From positions 2,064,824-2,128,823 of the forward strand of contig NZ_KI911559.1 in NCBI RefSeq assembly GCF_000515255.1: DNA of 64,000 nucleotides, given 5' to 3'. The notes under the pieces were generated by a model. It did not search any database. It was given only the letters and a program-made list of their open reading frames with translations, and had not been told where the DNA came from. The position numbers and the translations under genes were made by a program. The stretch is from Rhodovibrio salinarum DSM 9154. Its GTDB lineage: Bacteria > Pseudomonadota > Alphaproteobacteria > Kiloniellales > Rhodovibrionaceae. Positions 25,594 through 62,040 of this stretch are shown one piece after another. The first letter of the stretch is position 1. Each line of letters starts with the position of its first letter.

Positions 25594-26763
25594 CGAGCCG
25601 CACCTTTCTTCGTGCAGGCAGTCCCGGTCGTTGCAGGTGGCGGAGAAACCGTTCCGGGACCGCGAGATCGCACCGCTTGCGAATGGAGCAGTGCGACGCG
25701 TTGATTAGGGCTCAAGGCATCGCCGTTCGACCCAATTGCGACGCATTGCACGTTCGCAGGTGCACAGCGACGGAACGGCCACGACCGGCTGGCCCGGCGC
25801 GCCGCCCCAAGGCCGCACGCATTAGCGTAGGGCCACAAGGAAGACTCGCATAGCATGCGCCGAATTCCACGTCACCCATTGTGCGCTGCCGAACGAGAGC
25901 CCGATCGAGCTCGGAAAGCGCCGACCCTTAAAGCCGGCCCCGTTTCATCAGCGACGATCCCTATGTTGGGCGGGGTCGGAAAACGGAGGCGATTCCGTGT
26001 TCGGGCCATTCCGGTCTCCTTCACGACGCATGATCTGATTGCCTCAGATGTGCGTGTCGTTCGAGGGTAGGTTGAAGATCAAACTCTAATAAAATTTTAA
26101 AGCAGCCCGAGCCGGGTCCACCGCGCGCGACAGCCGCCGCAACAGCTGGCGCGCTGCGGGATGACAGACGCTGTGCTTCGGCCATCGCGCCAAATCGTAG
26201 GCGCTGTCTGCTGGTGCGTACCGGTGAGCGGAACGCGCGCGCCGTTCGTCTGCGGCAGGTCCGCTTACCAACCTCATGGCGATACTTGACCCGCGGTCGT
26301 AGCAGGAAAGTGTAGGAGGTAAGCAAAGCGTGCGCGCGCCAGGTCAGTGAGAGAGCAAGAAAGGCTAATGTCGTTTCGGTTAATCTAAAGCTCTGCGGCA
26401 GAATTTAAAAAAAATTTTAGCAAAATTTCTCACTGAGGATGGGCTCTTGGTTGTACACAACCATTGTGTCTAAGCCTTTTGGGGCACTAAACGTTTTTCG
26501 TGTACGCCTAATTGGCGAGTAGATGTGTTTTTTGTCATCGCCGGGTCGTGGTTCGGCGGATGAGTGGCGTTTGAATTTTTTATCCTGCGACAAGGTTGCG
26601 AGTTGTAACTTCTTCGCCGTTTGCCGCTGAGCGCGCATGCGAGTGTCACTGGTCAGTCCACTGTGTTTTGAGTTTATTTATATATCTCTCATGAGGAATT
26701 AAATATTAACCAAATTATGACCGGAAGCATGAGGGGTTGACCTTTTATGCAGGGGGGAGATCA
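25594..26763. other. Long AT-rich intergenic region
   Basis: About 1.17 kb without a convincing gene. From about 26080 to 26760 it is much richer in A and T than its surroundings (for example AATTTAAAAAAAATTTTAGC near 26401-26420 and TTTATTTATATATCT near 26675). Short ORFs at 25855-26070 (plus) and 26417-26638 (minus) have no recognisable similarity. It probably holds the promoter of the kinase operon and the phaZ promoter. It may be a scar of acquired DNA. Confidence 0.5.
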
Positions 26764-28254
26764 TTGATACATATAGTACGAGATTGGAGAGGCGTCTTGG
26801 AAACCCGGATTGACGAGCAGGAATTATTGGATGGGCTGCCGGTGCCGCTCGTTATAACGGGGCCAGATGGTCGTGTGTTATCTGAGAACACTGCCGCGCA
26901 GCAGATCGATCTTGGCCGCCACGTTACGGATGGATGTGCCATTCAGCGAGCGGAGCTTGTCAGTCCGCCGAGCAACCTGCTGCGCGAGGTGCATCGTCGG
27001 GGCCGGGAGTTTGCCCAGCTCGTCCAACGCGACGGTACCGTGGTGGAGGTCTTCCTGAGGCGCTGCGACGTCAGCCTCGGCGGTCGTCAGGTCACGGCTG
27101 TGATGGCCGAAGACGCGGGGTGGTACATCTGGGAAAAGCGCCGGACGGAGCGCGAGCATAACCTGCTGGTCGGCGTTTTCGACACGATTGACGACATGCT
27201 GCTTGTGCTCGACGACAAGCTCACGGTGCTAAGAGCCAGCCAGGCTTATCTCTCGGCTTTCCAGGTCGAGGAGGCAGACGTCGTCGGCAATCCGCTGGCG
27301 TTTATTCACAATGGCCTGTGGGATCAACGGGCGCTGTTGTCCAAGCTGGCGAGCGTTGTGCCCGCGGAAGGGGAGGTGCTGGATTATGAATGCAGCGCCA
27401 GTTTGCCCGACCGTGGCCCCCGGGACTTGCAGATCAGCGCGCGCAAGATCCATCGCGCCGGCAACGGGACGCGTACGCTGCTGATGACCGTGCGCGACGT
27501 GACCGGCGTTCAGCAGCGTCAGGACGAAGTGCTGCGACGCGCCAAGCTGGATGCGATGGGGAACTTAGCCGGCGGATTGGCGCACGACATCAACAACCGG
27601 TTGCAGCCGGTGATGACCTACGCCCAGCTGGCGGCAAGAAATCCCGATACGCCCAAGCTCGCGCAGTGGATGCGCCAGATCGAGACGAACGCCCGCAAGG
27701 CGCGCAACGTGGTGCGCAACGTCCTGGCGTTCGCGCGGAAGTCTCCGGTGGAAGGCACGCTCATCAGTCTGGCAGCCGCCACAATGCGGGAGGTCGAGGA
27801 AATCCGGGACGAGATGCCCGACACGATCTGCATCCGCACTTCTATCGACCCGGACGTTCCCGCGGTCGAGAGCGATACCGGGGAGCTTGAGCAGATCCTC
27901 GATAACTTAACGAGTAATGCGCGCCACGCCATGCCGTCCGGCGGCATTCTCACGATTGGGGTCGCGCATGTGAGTATCGACCAGGGCGTGGCCGAGCGCG
28001 AGTCCTTGGCGCCGGGGGAGTATGTACGCCTCAGCGTCGAGGATCAGGGCTGCGGTATTTCTGCAGAACACCAGGGGCGTATTTTCGACCCCTTCTTTAC
28101 GACCAAGGAAGTCGGTCGCGGGACGGGTCTTGGCCTGTCCATCGTGCACGGACTCGTGACCGGGCGTGGCGGGCAGGTCCGCGTGCGTTCCGAGCAGGAC
28201 CGTGGCACCCGCTTCGACCTGTACTTCCCTGTTGCCGATGCCGACGGGCGATAA
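26764..28254 (+). CDS. PAS-domain sensor histidine kinase
   Basis: A 496-residue, apparently soluble histidine kinase with no membrane helices. Two PAS-like regions come first (about residues 10-120 and 135-245). A dimerisation helix with the phosphoacceptor His274 (GGLAHDINNRLQPVM) follows, then the ATPase domain with N-box DNLTSNARHAMPSGG, G1 VEDQGCGIS, F FDPFFTTK and G2 GRGTGLGLS. The H-box HDINNRL is of the NtrB/hybrid-kinase class. I place the start at TTG 26764 because GGGGGGAG (26752-26759) lies at the right distance; the frame opens from TTG 26737. It is followed by a response regulator. Confidence 0.88.
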   Translation: MIHIVRDWRGVLETRIDEQELLDGLPVPLVITGPDGRVLSENTAAQQIDLGRHVTDGCAIQRAELVSPPSNLLREVHRRGREFAQLVQRDGTVVEVFLRRCDVSLGGRQVTAVMAEDAGWYIWEKRRTEREHNLLVGVFDTIDDMLLVLDDKLTVLRASQAYLSAFQVEEADVVGNPLAFIHNGLWDQRALLSKLASVVPAEGEVLDYECSASLPDRGPRDLQISARKIHRAGNGTRTLLMTVRDVTGVQQRQDEVLRRAKLDAMGNLAGGLAHDINNRLQPVMTYAQLAARNPDTPKLAQWMRQIETNARKARNVVRNVLAFARKSPVEGTLISLAAATMREVEEIRDEMPDTICIRTSIDPDVPAVESDTGELEQILDNLTSNARHAMPSGGILTIGVAHVSIDQGVAERESLAPGEYVRLSVEDQGCGISAEHQGRIFDPFFTTKEVGRGTGLGLSIVHGLVTGRGGQVRVRSEQDRGTRFDLYFPVADADGR

Positions 28255-28285
28255 ACCACCACTGTCTTGGCGAGGGAGTCGAACC

Positions 28286-28687
28286 GTGGCGAATATATTG
28301 TTGATCGAAGACCACCGCGTCGTGCGCGATGCGTTGAGCGACGCTTTGGAAAGCGTGGGGCACACCGTCGTCCCAGCTGAAAATGGCGACATCGGCCTGG
28401 AAGAGATCGCGCATCGCGATGTCGACATCGTTGTCACCGACCTGCTGATGCCCGAACGCGATGGGTTCGAGGTGTTGAAGCAACTGCACGGGCACAAGCC
28501 GGAACTGCCGGTGGTCGTGCTGTCCGGTGGCGGGTCGATGCGTGGGCCGGATCTTCTCGAGATGGCTCGTGCGCTCAAAGCCGACGTCACGCTGGCCAAG
28601 CCCGTTGACAGCGACGAATTGCTGGCAGCGGTGGATTACTTGATGAAGCGGGGGGCTGCGCCGGCGGTGACCGCGCAGCTTCGCTAG
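28286..28687 (+). CDS. Single-domain response regulator (CheY-like)
   Basis: A 133-residue receiver domain. The acidic pocket is Glu8-Asp9, the phosphoacceptor is Asp52 (VVTDLLMPERDG), the switch Ser is Ser80 and the conserved Lys is Lys105 (LAKPVD). There is no output domain, so it must act by protein contact, possibly passing phosphate on or binding a neighbour. The GTG start has the ribosome site GAGGGAG. It lies 31 bases after the histidine kinase gene, its likely phosphodonor. Confidence 0.9.
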   Translation: MANILLIEDHRVVRDALSDALESVGHTVVPAENGDIGLEEIAHRDVDIVVTDLLMPERDGFEVLKQLHGHKPELPVVVLSGGGSMRGPDLLEMARALKADVTLAKPVDSDELLAAVDYLMKRGAAPAVTAQLR

Positions 28688-28751
28688 CCGACGCGTCTTT
28701 CTGGAACCTGCAATGTCCATAACTCCTTCTGAGGATTGGAGCGTCAGTCCC

Positions 28752-29660
28752 ATGTCGTACCTGCTGTATGCGCCGAAACCCTTCTGTTTCGGTGAGAAGG
28801 TGCGGGAAATTGCTGCGCGGCGCGGCCGCGCGGTGCATACCGTGCGCAGTTCCGACAACCTGTTCCGGAAGCTTGATGCCGACTATGCGAAGGTCCTGCT
28901 GATCAGTCCCGAGGGCCTGCGCCAGGCGCCGATAGGATTCTCGGAAGTGCTGACCCGGATCAGCGACAACCTGATCGTGGTCGTTTTCGTTGACCCCGGC
29001 CAGTTGCAGGCGCCGGGGGCGCCAGATCTGGACTTCGCAGCGGCCATCTTGACGACCACCGATGCCGTCGAGCATGTGGCCTGGATCCTGGAGCGGCTGT
29101 TCGACCAGCCGATGCTGGCGGCGGGGGAAGTGGCGACTGGCCACTTGCAGCAGAACAGCATCCTTGCCCCCGAGGGCCTGGACGACTCGTTGTCCAGCGA
29201 TCCGATCGACGATCAACTGATGGCGCTCGAACTGGCACGCAAGCAGACCGCCGCCGGCGTGCCCACGGCGGCCTTGCGGCTCAGTGCTTATCGGGACACC
29301 TATCCGGTCACCTACATTTCCGCCGGGATCCGAGATATCACGGGGCTGCTGCCGCATACGCTCATCGGCCGGTCGCTCTACAGCCTGGCCGATTCCGCCC
29401 GGACACCGGGGGCGGAGATCGGAAGGCTGCGGGATGCGTTGGAGCAACGGCGGGCCGTTGCGGTCACGCTCGCGATGGCCGAGGACAACCGGCAGCCGAC
29501 AAGCGTTCGCCTTCAGATGCGTCCCTATTACAGCACCTGGGGCATCTTGCAGAGCTTTGTCGGACTGCTCTGGGCTCGGCAGGGAAATTCGGACGTCACG
29601 GATATGGTTGGCGGGTCTTGGTGGGGGACGTCGTGCGCCTGCGCGTCGAATGATCGCTAA
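28752..29660 (+). CDS. Receiver-like plus PAS domain protein, uncharacterised
   Basis: A 302-residue soluble protein. Residues 1-115 alternate strands and helices like a receiver (SYLLYAPKPF...KVLLISPEGL...LIVVVFVDPG...AAILTTTDAV), but the expected acidic phosphorylation pocket is missing, so it looks like a pseudo-receiver. Residues 170-285 fit a PAS domain (YPVTYISAGIRDITGLLPHT, then ALEQRRAVAVTLAMAEDNRQ). The C-terminal WWGTSCACASNDR is odd and may follow a frameshift. An ATG 13 codons upstream (28713) is possible, but the ribosome site favours 28752. It probably works with the kinase and response regulator immediately upstream. Confidence 0.65.
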   Translation: MSYLLYAPKPFCFGEKVREIAARRGRAVHTVRSSDNLFRKLDADYAKVLLISPEGLRQAPIGFSEVLTRISDNLIVVVFVDPGQLQAPGAPDLDFAAAILTTTDAVEHVAWILERLFDQPMLAAGEVATGHLQQNSILAPEGLDDSLSSDPIDDQLMALELARKQTAAGVPTAALRLSAYRDTYPVTYISAGIRDITGLLPHTLIGRSLYSLADSARTPGAEIGRLRDALEQRRAVAVTLAMAEDNRQPTSVRLQMRPYYSTWGILQSFVGLLWARQGNSDVTDMVGGSWWGTSCACASNDR

Positions 29661-29726
29661 GGCCCGGATGATGGCAAACAGGATCGTGTCAGGACTCAGT
29701 TTCCGGGCACGAGGATGAGGGATGGT

Positions 29727-30089
29727 ATGATGAGTGATGCCGAGGGGAAGGCGCAGGCTGTGGCCCCAGACACCCGTTGTGAAGTGCCATCGCGCTTCAC
29801 GCAGCAGGCGGATGTGTGCAGTGCCTTGCCCGTGGCGAATAGCGATGCGCTCGCCCGACTGGAGGCCGAGAACGATATGCTGCGCCAGCTGCTCGCGGCG
29901 ATCGTCGAGTCCGCTGGGCATCCGACCCCGGGCGGTCGGGACGGCCAGCAATATGTCGCCCCGGTTCCGACCGACCTGCTCGAACGGGCCGCCGCCGCAG
30001 GTGCCCATGAAACCACCGGGCACGGAGCGGACATTACCGCGTCGCTGAACCGGGATGAGCTGCGGCACCTGCTTGCGCAGTTGCTTTAG
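29727..30089 (+). CDS. Small coiled-coil protein, unknown function
   Basis: About 120 residues with a disordered N terminus, one leucine-zipper helix (SDALARLEAENDMLRQLLAA, about residues 40-59), a Gly/Pro/Ala-rich linker and a C-terminal amphipathic helix (LNRDELRHLLAQLL). A tandem ATGATG start is preceded by GAGGG. It has no recognised family. It follows the PAS protein gene after 66 bases and ends before a 429-base AT-rich gap, so it is probably the last gene of the kinase operon. Confidence 0.6.
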   Translation: MMSDAEGKAQAVAPDTRCEVPSRFTQQADVCSALPVANSDALARLEAENDMLRQLLAAIVESAGHPTPGGRDGQQYVAPVPTDLLERAAAAGAHETTGHGADITASLNRDELRHLLAQLL

Positions 30090-30518
30090 GCGACGATGTC
30101 GATCTACCGCTCCCGCATATGTCTGGGGGCGCCGCGCTGGCGGTATGGGACCGACGGTGTGGGAGCGTGCGGGCGGCGGCCGTGGTCAGCTGTCCTGGGA
30201 TCAATGCGGGCATGTCTCGAGCCGATCGGACGTGCACAGCTGGTTGAGTAGCGTTTGGGTTGCTGCTTGTTATCCCGAAAGGGATGTAACCCGTATTAGG
30301 TATTCATTTCATTTCAAGCAGATCTTTGGTCAAAAAGCGTCGTATTGTGCTCTAATAATAAATGGTTGCTTGCCGTTTCATTTATAAGCGGGTTAGGCTT
30401 AACGGTCAGGTTCTCCTGAAATTTGGTCGGATCGGCAGGTCGGGAGCCGGTCCGCAAGATTGCAATAAAGAACGGGCGACAGCCCGCGCCAGGGGGAGAC
30501 GGAGACAGGGAGGGTGGC
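30090..30518 (+). other. AT-rich spacer, probable promoter of the lipoprotein operon
   Basis: No gene is seen. CGCTCCCGCA (near 30108) and TGTGGGAGCG (near 30159) could form a long-range stem after the preceding operon. From 30260 to 30420 the DNA is AT-rich (for example CTCTAATAATAAATGG, near 30351) and is the likely promoter region for the next operon. No unambiguous -35/-10 pair can be chosen. Confidence 0.4.
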
Positions 30519-31280
30519 GTGCGTGTTCGGTTCGCCGGCCTGTTCATCGCCATCGGGCTTGCGTTCGCGGCTTGCGGCGCGGTGCCGCCCGCGGCGCCCT
30601 ACGACCCGATCATTCAGGACACGGCAACAAAGTTCGACAGGGCCTTTCAGACGTTCGTCATCAAGCTGAATCGCACCGCCGGGACGCCAGCCGGCGCATA
30701 CGCAAGCCACCAGGACTTTTACGACACGTGGCGCGGGGAGCTTGCGCATCTGCGTAATCGCGCGGTCGCGACCGACCCAGCGGATGCCTGCCCTTTGTCC
30801 GGCGCCACGGCGGAGGCGTTCGCGGATCTGGCGCAAACCTCCGGGGCGCTCGGTGGACAGGCGCTGGGGGCAGGCGGCGACCTTGCGGAGCTGATCGAGG
30901 TTGCGCTGAGCCGGGTCGCGGCCAGGCTCGATGCGCTGTCGGCAGAGCTGAACCAACCCCCCGGAACCCTGACGCCCAGCCAGATCGAGACCCTGCGTGC
31001 CAAGCGCGCGGCATGGACAGCGAAGCGCGCCCGATTGCAGGGCGTCGCGAACGCCATGGCGGTATCGCAGGTGTCGGCGCCCGAAGGCGGCTGTTCGACC
31101 ATCGTGGTCGCCAAACTCGATCAGCAGTTCACCGATTTCGAGCGCTTTCACCAGGCGCAGGGCGCGATCGGCGTACCCGCACGGGCGCAGGCCCCGGTTA
31201 TTCTGATGAACGTGACCATCCAGAACGTGCTCAAGGTGCAGGCCGTCAAGCAGCAGAAGGCGGCGGCCGGGCTGCTGTAG
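30519..31280 (+). CDS. Putative lipoprotein of unknown function
   Basis: A 253-residue protein starting at a GTG (ribosome site AGGGAGG), MRVRFAGLFIAIGLAFAACG. The signal peptide ends in a lipobox-like FAAC, so the mature protein would be anchored through that Cys. The rest is almost all helical and Ala/Gln-rich, with two further Cys (DACPLSG and GGCSTIVV) that could form a disulfide. No known family is recognised. It is the first of five closely spaced genes (gaps 42, 52, 41 and 29 bases). Confidence 0.7.
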   Translation: MRVRFAGLFIAIGLAFAACGAVPPAAPYDPIIQDTATKFDRAFQTFVIKLNRTAGTPAGAYASHQDFYDTWRGELAHLRNRAVATDPADACPLSGATAEAFADLAQTSGALGGQALGAGGDLAELIEVALSRVAARLDALSAELNQPPGTLTPSQIETLRAKRAAWTAKRARLQGVANAMAVSQVSAPEGGCSTIVVAKLDQQFTDFERFHQAQGAIGVPARAQAPVILMNVTIQNVLKVQAVKQQKAAAGLL

Positions 31281-31322
31281 TCCGGTCGCAACACGGTGCG
31301 GTGGCCCGGGAGGTGCCGGTCG

Positions 31323-31673
31323 ATGTCCGAACTCACCTTCGAGGAGGTGTTCGATCCGATTGCTCAAGCAGCTGTCGGGGCGTTCAACGAGCTGCGCGAT
31401 GGCGTGTGGGCTACGGTGAAGAACGTCGTCCTGTTGCAGCTGAAACAGATCGCGACCGCGATCGTCGACGTGGCCGCCGGCCTGACCGTCGAGCCGCCTT
31501 ACTACACGGTCGCGGGGGCTCAGGTGCTGGTGCAGATGTGCGTGACCGCGGCCACTCAGACCATCGCGGCGGCGACCGAGCTGGTGATCACGGAAGTACA
31601 GGTTGCGATCAGGAAGATTCTGGATGCCGTGCGGGACACGATCACGCAGGCCGTTCAGGTGGTGCTGTTCTAA
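31323..31673 (+). CDS. Helical amphipathic protein, unknown function
   Basis: A 116-residue protein beginning MSELTFEEVFDPIAQAAVGA. It is nearly all helix, rich in Ala, Val, Ile and Thr with regularly spaced Gln, Asp and Lys. It lacks a clear transmembrane segment or signal peptide. The composition recalls phasins or other surface-coating helical proteins, but no family signature is present. The ATG has the ribosome site GGGAGGTG. It is the second gene of the unassigned five-gene run. Confidence 0.6.
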   Translation: MSELTFEEVFDPIAQAAVGAFNELRDGVWATVKNVVLLQLKQIATAIVDVAAGLTVEPPYYTVAGAQVLVQMCVTAATQTIAAATELVITEVQVAIRKILDAVRDTITQAVQVVLF

Positions 31674-31725
31674 GGGAACGTTGGCCTGCCTCATAGGGCG
31701 CAACGGCAGTCATGGGGGATGCACG

Positions 31726-32088
31726 ATGGCAGACACGATAATCGACCAGTTGGCGAAAGGGCTGAAGGCCGCAACCAGCTTGCAGATCACCACGGTAGTG
31801 GGGGACTTCATGGTCACCGTTCCGGAAAACGGGGCCTTCAAGGTGACGACCCAGTCGCCGCAGGACGTGAAGGGCATCCACACCCGCATCGATTTGTTGC
31901 AGGGCGACATCGGCACGATCGTCGATGGGAGTTTTTACGATCCCAACCAGCCAAGCCCGCTGCAGGCCCTGCATAGCGAGCAGGTCGCCAACGCCCAGAA
32001 GATCGTTCAGTCCAACGTCGAGTTGTTGGGCGAGCTGGCCGAATGGCTCGGCAATTCGGTCAACGCCGCCCTGACCAAAGAAACGTAG
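31726..32088 (+). CDS. Unknown soluble protein
   Basis: A 120-residue acidic protein, MADTIIDQLAKGLKAATSLQ onward. After a first helix there is a short beta-rich part (ITTVVGDFMVTVPENGAFKVTT), then a helical second half (QGDIGTIVDGSF...EQVANAQKIVQSNVELLGEL). It has no Cys, signal or membrane helix. I do not recognise it. A ribosome site (GGGGGATG) precedes the chosen ATG. It is the third gene of the run. Confidence 0.6.
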   Translation: MADTIIDQLAKGLKAATSLQITTVVGDFMVTVPENGAFKVTTQSPQDVKGIHTRIDLLQGDIGTIVDGSFYDPNQPSPLQALHSEQVANAQKIVQSNVELLGELAEWLGNSVNAALTKET

Positions 32089-32129
32089 GCGGATCAGGCG
32101 ATGCGTGTGCGAATGGTGGAGCGGATCAG

Positions 32130-32909
32130 ATGAGCGAACGCAAGCTGTTCGCCGATAGCCTGCGGGATACGTTGTACGACGTGTTCAGCTTGGAGACGAA
32201 CACGATCGTCTGTCGGGAGATCACGGCGCGCAGCATGCCCCCCACGCTCCATGCCGTGCTCGACATTGCGCAGGCCTACGCTGACTTCCTGGGGAAACGT
32301 GGGGTGCCGTGTGACAGCCTACCGGGACCGATCACGACGGCCCCGCGCACCTTCAACACTTTGGCCAAGGCCGCCCAGGAGCTGATTGAAGCCGACCGGC
32401 AGGGCGCGCTTGCCAAGCCGTTGGAGACAGCTGACCGGGGTGTTGTCCACCGGATCCGGCGCAGCTCCATCCACCTGTGCTTTGTACTGCTCCGGATCGC
32501 TGGCGTACTGGATCTGGCGCGCGGACAGGAAGCGGCCGCGCTCGACGATCTGGTGGGCTTGGTCGATGATAATTGTCCGCTTTGGAATGCCGACCGGGCA
32601 CAGCTTTACGCCTTGCAGGTGCGTGGAAAGCTGCAGGAGATGGTGCTGCGCCCGCAGGATCGGGCAACGATCCGGAAGATCTGGGAGGTGCGTTGCGAGT
32701 ACGTGACGATGCAAAGCGTCATTCAACTCGATGGGGACGTGGTCACCCGAGTGCAGGAAAGCTACGCAGGGCGCGAAAGCGATTGGTTGCATGACCTGCA
32801 TCGCCGCGGTGTGGGCAGTTCGATCGGTATGTGGAGCCAGTTGGTGGCGACCGTTCGCGCGTTGGCCGAGGGGATCGGCCGCGGTTTGACGGCCGTTTTG
32901 AGGTCTTAG
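32130..32909 (+). CDS. Unknown all-helical protein
   Basis: A 259-residue protein, MSERKLFADSLRDTLYDVFS onward. It is predicted soluble and largely helical, with several basic helices (VVHRIRRSSIHLCFVLLRIA, then IRKIWEVRCEYVTMQSVIQL) and two internal Cys. There are no recognisable domains, metal motifs or signal peptide. The start is the ATG following GGTGGAGCGG. It is the fourth gene of the unassigned run. Confidence 0.6.
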   Translation: MSERKLFADSLRDTLYDVFSLETNTIVCREITARSMPPTLHAVLDIAQAYADFLGKRGVPCDSLPGPITTAPRTFNTLAKAAQELIEADRQGALAKPLETADRGVVHRIRRSSIHLCFVLLRIAGVLDLARGQEAAALDDLVGLVDDNCPLWNADRAQLYALQVRGKLQEMVLRPQDRATIRKIWEVRCEYVTMQSVIQLDGDVVTRVQESYAGRESDWLHDLHRRGVGSSIGMWSQLVATVRALAEGIGRGLTAVLRS

Positions 32910-32938
32910 CCGGCCGCATCGTCACGGAGGTCAGGTCG

Positions 32939-33418
32939 ATGGACGAGGCGGGTAGCGCGGTCTTTGCCGAGCGTGACGAGACGCCGGGTATCTGGCTGGT
33001 GCGCGACCTGCTGTTGGCAGGTGGGTTGACCATCGAGTCCGAGCTTCTGCGCGACGGGCAGCCGGTGCGCTACGCCCGGACGGTGGTAACGCTGGACGCC
33101 GACGTGGTCACCACTTTCCGTGCCGATGCGGCACGCGACGATGCCTTGGTCGCCGCGCATTTCGAACGCGTTCAACAGAAAGTGGACCGCTTGGGCGAGA
33201 TGCCGAAGGCGATCCGTCTGGCCGCTACCTATGCCGCGTTCATTGCCGGGGTGGGGGCGTTCCTGCTCTCGGACGATCTGCCGGGCCTGTGGGCGGGGGA
33301 CTTCGGCTGGCTACGGAACCTGGTGGTTGGCGGTGTGGCCGCCGCCATCGCACCGTTCGCGGTGCGTGCGTTGCTGCACTGGCTGGTACGTCGGCTGACG
33401 CGCGCACCGCGATGGTAA
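32939..33418 (+). CDS. Unknown membrane protein with two C-terminal helices
   Basis: A 159-residue protein. Residues 1-85 are soluble and acidic, ending in a helix (ARDDALVAAHFERVQQKVDR). Two membrane helices follow (about residues 92-110, LAATYAAFIAGVGAFLLSD, and 122-148, LRNLVVGGVAAAIAPFAVRA then LLHWLV), ending in a basic tail RRLTRAPRW. The soluble domain is therefore probably cytoplasmic. The ribosome site GGAGGTCAGG precedes the ATG. It is the last gene of the run and is followed by a terminator-like hairpin. Confidence 0.6.
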   Translation: MDEAGSAVFAERDETPGIWLVRDLLLAGGLTIESELLRDGQPVRYARTVVTLDADVVTTFRADAARDDALVAAHFERVQQKVDRLGEMPKAIRLAATYAAFIAGVGAFLLSDDLPGLWAGDFGWLRNLVVGGVAAAIAPFAVRALLHWLVRRLTRAPRW

Positions 33419-33446
33419 TGCCTTGGGTTGGGATGTCACGACGCGT

Positions 33447-33470
33447 CGGACGGCTGGAGGAAGCCGTCCG
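33447..33470 (+). terminator. Stem-loop between convergent genes
   Basis: CGGACGGCT (33447-33455) and AGCCGTCCG (33462-33470) form a perfect 9-bp stem with a 6-base loop. It lies midway between the convergent ends at 33418 and 33498 and has no T run on either side. It is likely to act as a shared transcription end. Confidence 0.5.
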
Positions 33471-33497
33471 CCCACAGCCGTAAAGCGCCCAGCACGC

Positions 33498-33890
33498 TTA
33501 TAGCGCTGCTGCCAGCAGGGCGCGCATCTCCGTTGGCAACTTGATCAAATCATCACGGGTTTCTTTGAGTTTTGCGACCGCCGCGTGGAGGTTTTGCGTG
33601 TCCGTGCGCAGACGCACGGTTGCCTGCTCGAGATCGGCGGCGCCAGTGAGCAGGGTCGACATGGCGTGTCGGGTCTGGGCAGGCGTACCGATTGCGTTCG
33701 AAACGTTAGCCCGGTGGTAGGCGCTGTGAGCGGTGACTGGGTGTGAGGGGTGGTTCGACGGGGCGACCATCGCGTCCTGCGGATCCACCTCGGCCGGGGT
33801 GAAGTTGGTCATCGGGTCGGCGTCTTGATGGGCGGCGAATTGCGGAACGACCTTACCCGCATTGAAGTCGATGGCGATGAGCTGGCCCAT
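33498..33890 (-). CDS. Unknown small protein with C-terminal coiled coil
   Basis: A 130-residue protein beginning MGQLIAIDFNAGKVVPQFAA, with a Pro/Asp/His-rich disordered middle. The C-terminal half (about residues 78-130) is a continuous amphipathic helix rich in Leu, Thr and Lys (LEQATVRLRTDTQNLHAAVA). No family is recognised. It converges on the five-gene run. Its ribosome site is poor, and coding status rests on the length of the frame and a sensible composition. Confidence 0.5.
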   Translation of the reverse strand: MGQLIAIDFNAGKVVPQFAAHQDADPMTNFTPAEVDPQDAMVAPSNHPSHPVTAHSAYHRANVSNAIGTPAQTRHAMSTLLTGAADLEQATVRLRTDTQNLHAAVAKLKETRDDLIKLPTEMRALLAAAL

Positions 33891-60615: not shown

Positions 60616-60759
60616 CTGTGGCCGCTGAGCTCCCGTGATGCCGCCTACCAGTGGGGCAAAGCCAAAAGCGGTGCAAAGCTAGCATGCCCGCTGAGGCATT
60701 AAAGGTGGATGGCTTGCGTTCGGGCCATCAAGGGTTACATCTTGCGTGAGCCGAGATAA

Positions 60760-60860
60760 CGGCCGGGGTGCCGTGCTGGACCGGGCGAAGGAGCCCGCAC
60801 TGGCGCGGCTGAGAGCACACCCGCTGAACCTGATCGGGGTCGTCCCCGCGAAGGGAGCCG
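60760..60860 (+). promoter_or_regulatory. TPP riboswitch (THI element)
   Basis: The conserved thiamine-pyrophosphate aptamer sequences are all present: GGGGTGCC at 60765-60772, CTGAGA at 60809-60814, ACCTGATC at 60828-60835 and GAAGGGA at 60850-60856, closed by the outer P1 stem (CGGC at 60760-60763 with GCCG at 60857-60860). The Shine-Dalgarno GGAGG of thiO (60862-60866) follows at once, so TPP binding probably blocks translation initiation. A weak promoter (TTGCGT at 60714-60719, TACATC at 60736-60741) lies upstream. Confidence 0.93.
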
Positions 60861-60868
60861 TGGAGGAC

Positions 60869-62040
60869 ATGACCAGCTTACTTGACGACATCGCCATTCA
60901 GCAGCGCCCGCACACCGCGATCGTCGGGGCGGGCGTCAATGGTTTGTGCATCGCCTGGAATTTGGCCCGCAACGGCTGCGCGGTCGACGTTTACGAACGC
61001 GGCCGGATCGGGCGGGGCGCCAGCTGGGCCGCCGCCGGCATGCTGGCCCCCGGCGCGGAGGCCGAACCCGGCGAGAATGCCGTGACCGCCGCCGGCCGAC
61101 AGGCGCTGACCCTTTGGCCCGCCTTCGCCCGCGATCTGCAGGCGGCAAGCGGGATCGATCCCGAACTGCGCACCGATGGTCTCCTGATCGCCGCGACCAA
61201 CCGTGACGAGGTGGAGCAGCTACGTCACGATCACGCCTTCCTGCAACGGCAAGGCGTGCCGGCCGAGTGGCTGTCCGGCGCGGAGGCCCGGCGGCGCGAG
61301 CCCTATCTGCGCGCCGGTCTGCCGGGCGCGCTGTTCAGCCCGAACGACGGACAGGCCAATAACCGCGCGCTGGTGCAGGCGCTGGCCGAAGCCGCGCGGG
61401 CGGCGGGCGCGCGGATCCATGAGCAGACGCCCGTCGACGCTTTGGAAACGCGCCAGGGCCGGGCGGTCGGACTGATCGTCAACGGGGCACAGGTCCAGGC
61501 TGATGCGGTCGTGCTGTGTGCCGGTGCCTGGGGACGGGAGATTGACGGTGTCCCGGACAGCGCGCAGGCCCCGATCCGTCCGATCAAGGGACAGATGCTG
61601 TCGCTGCAAATGAACCCCGATCAGCCCTTGGTGCGCCACGTCCTGTGGGCACCCAAGGTCTATCTGGTGCCGCGGCGCGACGGCACGCTCCTGATCGGCG
61701 CGACGGTCGAGGAGAAGGGCTTCGAGGACGCGATGACCGCCGGAGGCGTGTTCGCCCTGCTGGAGGCTGCCTGGCGGGCACTGCCAGCGATCGAGGAGTT
61801 GGCGATCAAGGAAATGTGGGCCGGCCATCGGCCGGGCTCGCGCGACGACGCACCGGTGTTGGGCGCAACACCGGTGGAAGGTTTGTACCTTGCGAACGGT
61901 CATCACCGGAACGGCATCCTGATGACGCCGCTGTCCGGCCAGGCGGTCGCTGCCGAGATCCTGACAGGGCAGCGACACGACAGCTTGGCGGCCTTCCGGG
62001 TCGAGCGCTTCCACAATCAGGATCGAGCACGGGGCGTGGC

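Follow-up and report, generated by a model that had tools for sequence, protein, structure and literature searches.

We analysed a stretch of 64,000 nucleotides from Rhodovibrio salinarum DSM 9154 (Alphaproteobacteria, Kiloniellales; assembly GCF_000515255.1, contig NZ_KI911559.1, positions 2,064,824 to 2,128,823 of the forward strand; hereafter 'the window'), and in it a run of five plus-strand genes at window positions 30519–33418. A sequence-only reading had described this run as an operon of five unassigned proteins that looked like one complete machine. As we show here, genes 3, 4 and 5, which we refer to as the triad, are inherited together and code for three homologous proteins, two of them soluble and one with two predicted membrane segments, and genes 1 and 2, the lipoprotein-helical pair, constitute a separate module. 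The R. salinarum genome consists of one contig of 4.18 Mb, is 99% complete and carries gene 4 in a single copy. The five genes are as follows (aa, amino acids):

30519..31280, plus strand: gene 1, GTG start, 253 aa, predicted lipoprotein, first gene of the lipoprotein-helical pair
31323..31673, plus strand: gene 2, 116 aa, helical, second gene of the pair
31726..32088, plus strand: gene 3, 120 aa, smallest triad protein; helix, strands and long helix; G60-D61, H83
32130..32909, plus strand: gene 4, 259 aa, triad protein; shared core with a helical insertion; QLDGD motif, H224
32939..33418, plus strand: gene 5, 159 aa, predicted membrane anchor; N-terminal shared core and two C-terminal segments

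We regard all five open reading frames (ORFs) as real genes, not chance frames, mainly because all five have homologues with the same neighbour order within their module; a random run of ORFans is ruled out by this conserved order together with the sequence conservation. The gaps between the genes are 42, 52, 41 and 29 bases, with the spacing alike at all four junctions, and each of the five starts is preceded by a G-rich or purine-rich stretch, in keeping with the tightly spaced five-gene run that had been proposed.

Genes 3, 4 and 5 share one domain. In profile-profile comparisons, gene 3 aligned with gene 4 (probability 93, E 5e-8) and gene 4 with gene 5 (probability 97.6, E 1.7e-11), the match of gene 3 with gene 5 being weaker (probability 37, E 6e-5), all E-values being those of single comparisons. 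The structure model of gene 4 (predicted local distance difference test score, pLDDT, 92.1; predicted template modelling score, pTM, 0.87) starts with a helix and strand 1, continues with the helical insertion and then strands 2 and 3, and ends in a helix of 44 residues; the model of gene 3 (pLDDT 85.6, pTM 0.69) follows the gene-4 plan minus the insertion, with two short extra strands besides the helix, strands and long helix. Finally, a GD...H signature runs through all three families, with the Asp after strand 2 and the His 19 to 22 residues further on. Asp and His are both present in 69/75 gene-3, 78/78 gene-4 and 55/71 gene-5 rows; the His taken by itself is found in 75/75 gene-3 rows, and G, D and H together in 78/78 gene-4 rows. 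Four hand-picked gene-5 rows (from loci L082, L089, L092 and L099; L labels denote loci and stretches from other genomes throughout) are in the wrong frame and remain in the signature count, in the gene-5 profile and in the Pfam scan described below. As judged by hydropathy, gene 3 has no membrane segment, gene 4 has one borderline segment and gene 5 has two C-terminal segments at about residues 92–110 and 128–146, with 13 residues after the second, which agrees with the earlier assignment of gene 5 as a two-helix membrane protein. The description of the set as containing 'three helical proteins' is only partly right, since genes 3, 4 and 5 have an alpha-beta domain in common by both the models and the profile-profile comparisons.

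The three families also evolve together. Across 46 non-redundant loci (L072 and the four wrong-frame loci having been dropped beforehand), their distance matrices correlate with Mantel r of 0.73, 0.69 and 0.63, and 0/1000 permutations reached values as high. The correlation shows that the three families descend together as a unit, not that their proteins touch.

The first lead to the triad came from a tblastn search of gene 4 against plasmids, which matched seven Azospirillum records; in each of the three Azospirillum regions that we read, an AAA-ATPase/ParB pair is followed by three adjacent hypothetical genes that align with genes 3, 4 and 5 in order, the pairwise BLAST alignment being significant for gene 4 only. 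Searched as a single sequence in 61 genomes of the order, gene 3 found only itself. A four-row gene-4 profile detected the family in 6/385 genomes of the class, own genome included, and in the five other loci gene 3, gene 4 and a small next protein stand in order, one gene 3 being cut by the contig end. A seven-row gene-4 profile then yielded 88 relatives in a genome-contig collection, of which 80 were kept, and in 70/80 of these loci genes 3, 4 and 5 follow one another in that order on the same strand. The 80 loci contain near-duplicates (Azospirillum, Flammeovirga), and divergence in gene 4 exceeds 30% for 46 of the 63 that were usable. The triad is incomplete in the following loci:

L052 and L066: gene 3 cut at the contig end
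L057: gene 5 cut at the contig end
L113 (Moorena): contig begins 509 bases before gene 4; no gene 5
L072 (Paractinoplanes): gene-4-like and gene-5-like parts fused in one protein (L072:4337-5551), in addition to adjacent genes 3 and 4
L101, L106, L116 (Moorena) and L067: gene 5 not adjacent
L083: gene 4 alone

By the titles of the records, the hosts comprise Pseudomonadota, desulfobacteria, anammox bacteria (Brocadia, Loosdrechtia), Chloroflexi, Cyanobacteria (Moorena, Symploca, Spirulina), Bacteroidota (Flammeovirga, Flexithrix), myxobacteria (Enhygromyxa), Paractinoplanes, Sulfopaludibacter and one Methanophagales archaeon, that is, about ten phyla with one archaeal locus, the phylum names being those we presume for these records. 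Some of the host bins look contaminated, and the labels look wrong for L051 versus L054, L071 and L073; the neighbourhoods of L051 and L054 look near-identical in bins labelled Anaerolineae and Alphaproteobacteria, suggesting misbinning.

The triad shows some elaboration. In 13 loci, all with cyanobacterial titles (L090, L101, L104–L108, L111, L112, L114 and L117–L119), genes 3 and 4 are separated by an additional gene-3 protein whose long acidic tail is probably disordered. Near the triad, further small proteins that are related to the shared domain or look like it occur at L055:7053-7304, L055:7320-7808, L063:8483-8833 and L075:342-671 (minus strand). Of these, L055:7320-7808 and L063:8483-8833 alone have profile matches, and L063:8483-8833 sits between two peptidoglycan-binding proteins. 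A phage origin was considered and rejected: none of 70 pattern stretches in a viral collection was confirmed (such a pattern scan can miss distant relatives), a single gene-4 sequence had no match in 50,697 phage records, and the matches to PHROG are weak only.

The triad is a previously unnamed system, and the libraries that we searched contain no named family for it. None of the proteins of genes 1 to 5 exceeds a Pfam or NCBIfam cut-off, including those for the Tss proteins of the type VI membrane complex (TssJLM), and the PHROG matches are weak. Pfam scans of 78 gene-4, 75 gene-3 and 71 gene-5 rows gave only single-member matches, and the NCBIfam scan, which covered the window proteins and the gene-4 family, gave none for the 78 gene-4 rows. 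PADLOC at E 0.01 recognised 0/10 proteins (the five of the window and five from other triads). Against PDB sequences, the three triad profiles had no match at E 0.1; at E 10 the gene-3 profile drew three unrelated matches. Foldseek at E 0.001 found no PDB match for the gene-3 or gene-4 model and no BFVD match for gene 4, the absence of a structural match not being proof of a new fold. Among the VIA-align results for gene 4, the best has Z 5.5 and involves mainly residues 36–191, so that the shared core is barely covered. For the gene-3 model, VIA-align ranks 1ybx_B first (Z 5.3, 80 residues, 4.8 Å) and 5yrx ninth (Z 4.0, 67 residues, 4.2 Å); Z below 8 is common by chance, and both matches fall short of what this aligner counts as meaningful. 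We take 1ybx and 5yrx to be YbaB-family proteins. The YbaB fold is helix-strand-strand-strand-helix, and the weak likeness of the gene-3 model to it offers a possible lead, not membership. The literature search found no text with the three signature peptides and no paper on the triad, which does not prove that none exists. The original statement that the five proteins belong to no known family is supported, and it extends to the relatives scanned.

Genes 1 and 2 are a separate small conserved pair, distinct from genes 3, 4 and 5. By hydropathy, gene 1 has one N-terminal hydrophobic segment followed by Cys19, consistent with the lipoprotein call of the earlier reading; the residue three before Cys19 is Phe instead of the usual Leu, and the relatives have LSGC, ATGC or LGGC there. 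Gene 2 has no membrane segment at a hydropathy threshold of 1.6 and one at 1.3. A single-sequence search with gene 1 returned itself and weak matches in 3/398 genomes, one of which led to a genome of the same order with a gene-1 relative followed by a gene-2 relative; this arrangement is seen in 6 other genomes of the order. A two-row gene-2 profile found relatives in 7/59 genomes of the order, and a seven-row profile in 7/385 genomes of the class, own genome counted in both cases. Two of four further class loci with gene 2 have a gene-1-like neighbour, and the other two gave no gene-1 match. Gene 2 as a single sequence had no match in the genome-contig collection, neither gene had one in the plasmid collection, and no profile-profile match involving gene 1 or 2 was seen in the five pairs compared. 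At L127:5902-7557 (minus strand), a gene-1-like and gene-2-like pair is followed by two small membrane-type proteins that share a similar internal stretch.

Do pair and triad belong together? Within up to 6 kb around the 80 triads, the gene-1 and gene-2 profiles found nothing at E < 0.01, and no triad lies beside the pair in the six other genomes of the order or in the four further class genomes; for a triad anywhere in genomes with the pair, genomes G004, G039, G468 and G507 were checked with the full gene-4 profile, G656 and G788 with the four-row gene-4 profile only, and G014, G036, G037 and G038 with a single gene-3 sequence and a reading of the neighbourhood only. The sequence-only reading was right about a real, unassigned operon and wrong in taking it for a likely single conserved five-gene set: gene order is conserved within each module, no second instance of the complete set was seen, and triad and pair occur separately elsewhere. 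The finding is also stronger than first stated, in that a system both widespread and unnamed accounts for three of the genes.

The surroundings of the triad differ from genome to genome. We compared neighbours in 70/80 loci using a simple gene caller, and found response regulators recurring in 7 loci, ParA-like genes in 6, Maf-like genes in 6, ABC ATPases in 4 and kinases in 4. In three loci the gene next after gene 5 encodes a peptidoglycan-binding protein: Amidase_2+PG_binding_1 in L045 and CHAP+PG_binding_1 in L080, both overlapping by a few bases, and PG_binding_1 in L063, 144 bases on. A Maf-like gene lies about 100–150 bases upstream of the triad in cyanobacterial L090, L101, L104, L106 and L107, and one is on the same contig as the triad in an alphaproteobacterial bin, L056. 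At L029:14233-17555, short repeated units whose frames translate to one recurring peptide look like an array of clustered regularly interspaced short palindromic repeats (CRISPR).

Near a small minority of triads, in Sphingomonas natans and Candidatus Brocadia, lies a cluster resembling an extracellular contractile injection system (eCIS). That of S. natans has an eCIS core gene (72470-73789) together with genes for a sheath, an ATPase and tube-like and baseplate-like proteins; the triad (77343-79168) stands 3.5 kb past the core gene, with three ORFs between, and is followed by a CHAP protein and then a lipoprotein-like protein (sheath, AAA, eCIS core, CHAP and peptidoglycan-binding labels are Pfam matches here, and the others were read from the sequence). 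In Candidatus Brocadia, peptidase-like genes come after an eCIS-like cluster that includes core genes, and the triad lies beyond them, about 13 kb past the last core match. In L045/L187 a lone sheath gene is found beside the triad, in divergent orientation. This tail sheath gene (L187:6119-7666, plus strand) carries a FlgD_ig domain, and the 19.9-kb L187 stretch contains no tube match. When the loci, the window and another 40 stretches drawn from 24 triad genomes were searched for sheaths, the only ones found were the L045/L187 gene and one Moorena gene, about 54 kb from its triad.

At the level of whole genomes, a sheath occurs in 28/45 triad genomes (24 of them over the Pfam cut-off) versus 39/385 class genomes (33 over), and the eCIS core (PF13699) in 20/40 triad genomes, the latter search having covered 40 of the 46 known. 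Within the class, a sheath is found in 3/6 triad genomes as compared to 36/379 others (p 0.016), and, with sheath frames of at least 600 aa, a cut chosen after seeing the data, in 3/6 versus 6/379 (p 1.7e-4). The full gene-4 profile, which recovers 33/33 of the known triad genomes searched, detected no triad in 36 other sheath-bearing and 36 sheath-free class genomes.

Because of the peptidoglycan-binding neighbours, the proximity of triads to contractile genes and the genome-level sheath counts, we tentatively favour an envelope role: the triad may assist in docking machines at the cell envelope or in releasing them there. We infer, as a possible reading of complex, membrane side and function alike, that it is a membrane dock or gate for machinery that meets or crosses the envelope. 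The proteins of genes 3, 4 and 5 would assemble into a heteromeric complex that the gene-5 protein anchors to the inner membrane on its cytoplasmic side, with the shared domains packing via their strands and long helices in a YbaB-like topology. The conserved gene order, the shared domain, the correlated distance matrices and the Paractinoplanes fusion speak for this. Gene 3 and the helical insertion of gene 4 could then offer a docking surface, the cargo being contractile injection particles or peptidoglycan-binding enzymes where the host has them. In R. salinarum, where the triad stands directly behind the lipoprotein-helical pair, the periplasmic or outer-membrane part of this assembly may come from the pair.

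Several results weigh against this reading. The R. salinarum genome itself yields 0 matches to the tail sheath PF04984 at E 0.001 and 0 to the eCIS core PF13699, 17/45 triad genomes show no sheath, and for most triads the stretches that we read contain no contractile gene. The larger sheath contrast, 28/45 versus 39/385, sets many phyla against a single class, with phylum, genome size and binning as confounders. Counting only matches over the Pfam cut-off, the in-class difference is 1/6 versus 32/379 (p 0.42): of the three triad genomes in the class that have a sheath, G523 and G636 fall below it, which is why we hold the reading less firmly, although both have eCIS core genes. The eCIS core count is compared only with the tool's control genomes, 0/14. 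The recurrent neighbours of triads come from common families and include no specific partner, and the profiles of genes 1 and 2 place no lipoprotein pair near the other triads. With neither sheath nor eCIS core in its own genome, the triad cannot be simply an eCIS part, and we therefore propose a more general inner-membrane dock or gate. The fullest form of this proposal, which we consider doubtful, is a phylum-spanning envelope machine made of three copies of one undescribed domain, recruited repeatedly by contractile injection systems and having other partners here, namely the lipoprotein pair; for eCIS, such a machine could be likened to the type VI membrane complex as its counterpart.

The same observations can be read in other ways. 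The triad could be a lysis or release cassette in which gene 5 is holin-like, genes 3 and 4 restrain it, and neighbouring peptidoglycan enzymes and lipoproteins finish the rupture, releasing particles or exoproducts. Both the two short membrane segments of gene 5 and the PG_binding_1 proteins directly downstream of it in L045, L080 and L063 fit this idea, as does the published statement that eCIS particles are freed after cell lysis (PMC8213781). The five window genes include no peptidoglycan enzyme, however, such a neighbour was seen at three triads only, and neither the pattern-based scan of viral contigs nor the single-sequence search of phage records confirmed a relative. We also know of no holin with two homologous soluble partners, and overall consider a lysis cassette rather unlikely. 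Quite improbable, in our estimate, is a cell-death or conflict module in which the soluble proteins (genes 3 and 4) would respond to a signal by setting off membrane damage through gene 5. The patchy spread, the varied neighbourhoods, the combination of soluble partners with a membrane protein, and hosts many of which are, to our knowledge, large-genome, filamentous or social, are as one would expect of such a module, but the conserved co-evolution looks more like a stable complex and PADLOC matched none of the ten triad and pair proteins, in a scan that took in no flanks.

A tether built on a YbaB-like complex, linking DNA or ParA-positioned cargo to the membrane, would accommodate the VIA-align list of the gene-3 model, with 1ybx_B first and 5yrx ninth, as well as the AAA-ATPase/ParB pair ahead of the triad in the three Azospirillum regions and the ParA-like gene upstream in L043. 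Given that Z values below 8 arise commonly by chance, that no Pfam YbaB match was obtained in 75 gene-3 members and that a ParA-like cluster is present in only 6/70 loci, 4 of them Azospirillum-type, we regard it as highly improbable. Lastly, all five genes might constitute one functional machine whose joining was selected in this genome. The similar spacing at the four junctions speaks for it, as might the S. natans protein with a lipoprotein-like N-terminus about 1 kb past the triad; that protein fails the gene-1 profile (E 1.8), and pair and triad are not side by side in any other genome read, making a five-gene machine unlikely. The membrane dock or gate remains the reading that we tentatively prefer.

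Turning to the remaining features of the window, the GC content upstream of gene 1, where an AT-rich promoter region had been noted, drops to 57%, but both sigma-70-like sites detected within 30050-33700 lie on the minus strand. Genes just upstream (26737-30089, plus strand) are sensor-kinase-like, response-regulator-like and PAS-type, labels that were read from the sequence; the PAS protein alone was scanned, giving weak PAS matches below the cut-off. The same stretch holds a 124-aa ORF without assignment. Downstream, a 130-aa ORF (33498-33890, minus strand) is convergent with the operon and has no Pfam or NCBIfam match over the cut-off, and a thiamine pyrophosphate (TPP) riboswitch at 60754-60873 (plus strand) scores above the Rfam gathering threshold.

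A three-protein order kept over about ten phyla, going by record names, with a confident model, no named family in the libraries scanned and no significant PDB match, is a rare find. If the triad indeed docks machines, it becomes testable how injection systems without a type VI membrane complex meet the envelope of their producer. Among known systems, we take 1ybx and 5yrx to represent YbaB/EbfC, which the gene-3 model weakly resembles in a helix-strands-helix core of about 100 residues; at E 0.01 there is no sequence match in Pfam-A (75 gene-3, 78 gene-4 and 71 gene-5 rows, four of the gene-5 rows in the wrong frame). The triad differs from YbaB/EbfC in comprising three paralogues in one operon, of which one carries membrane segments and another a large helical insertion. 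Holin/endolysin (type 10) export modules, as we know them, are similar in placing a small membrane protein beside a peptidoglycan enzyme, as in L045 and L080, and differ in that the five window proteins contain no peptidoglycan hydrolase domain (Pfam) and the triad has two extra homologous soluble proteins.

A further comparison is with CisA of Streptomyces coelicolor, described as the membrane partner of a cytoplasmic contractile injection system and, like the triad near eCIS clusters, a non-core membrane protein encoded with a contractile system (PMC12237407). As described there, CisA is one bitopic protein with a single membrane segment and a periplasmic C-terminal domain, whereas the triad consists of three related proteins with a two-segment anchor; by hydropathy, gene 5 does not have the CisA-type topology, as only 13 residues follow the second of its two C-terminal segments. 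The contractile injection system of Anabaena is anchored to the thylakoid by tail-fibre and baseplate extensions and not by a triad, and the likeness to what we propose lies in contractile particles being kept at an internal membrane (PMC8894136).

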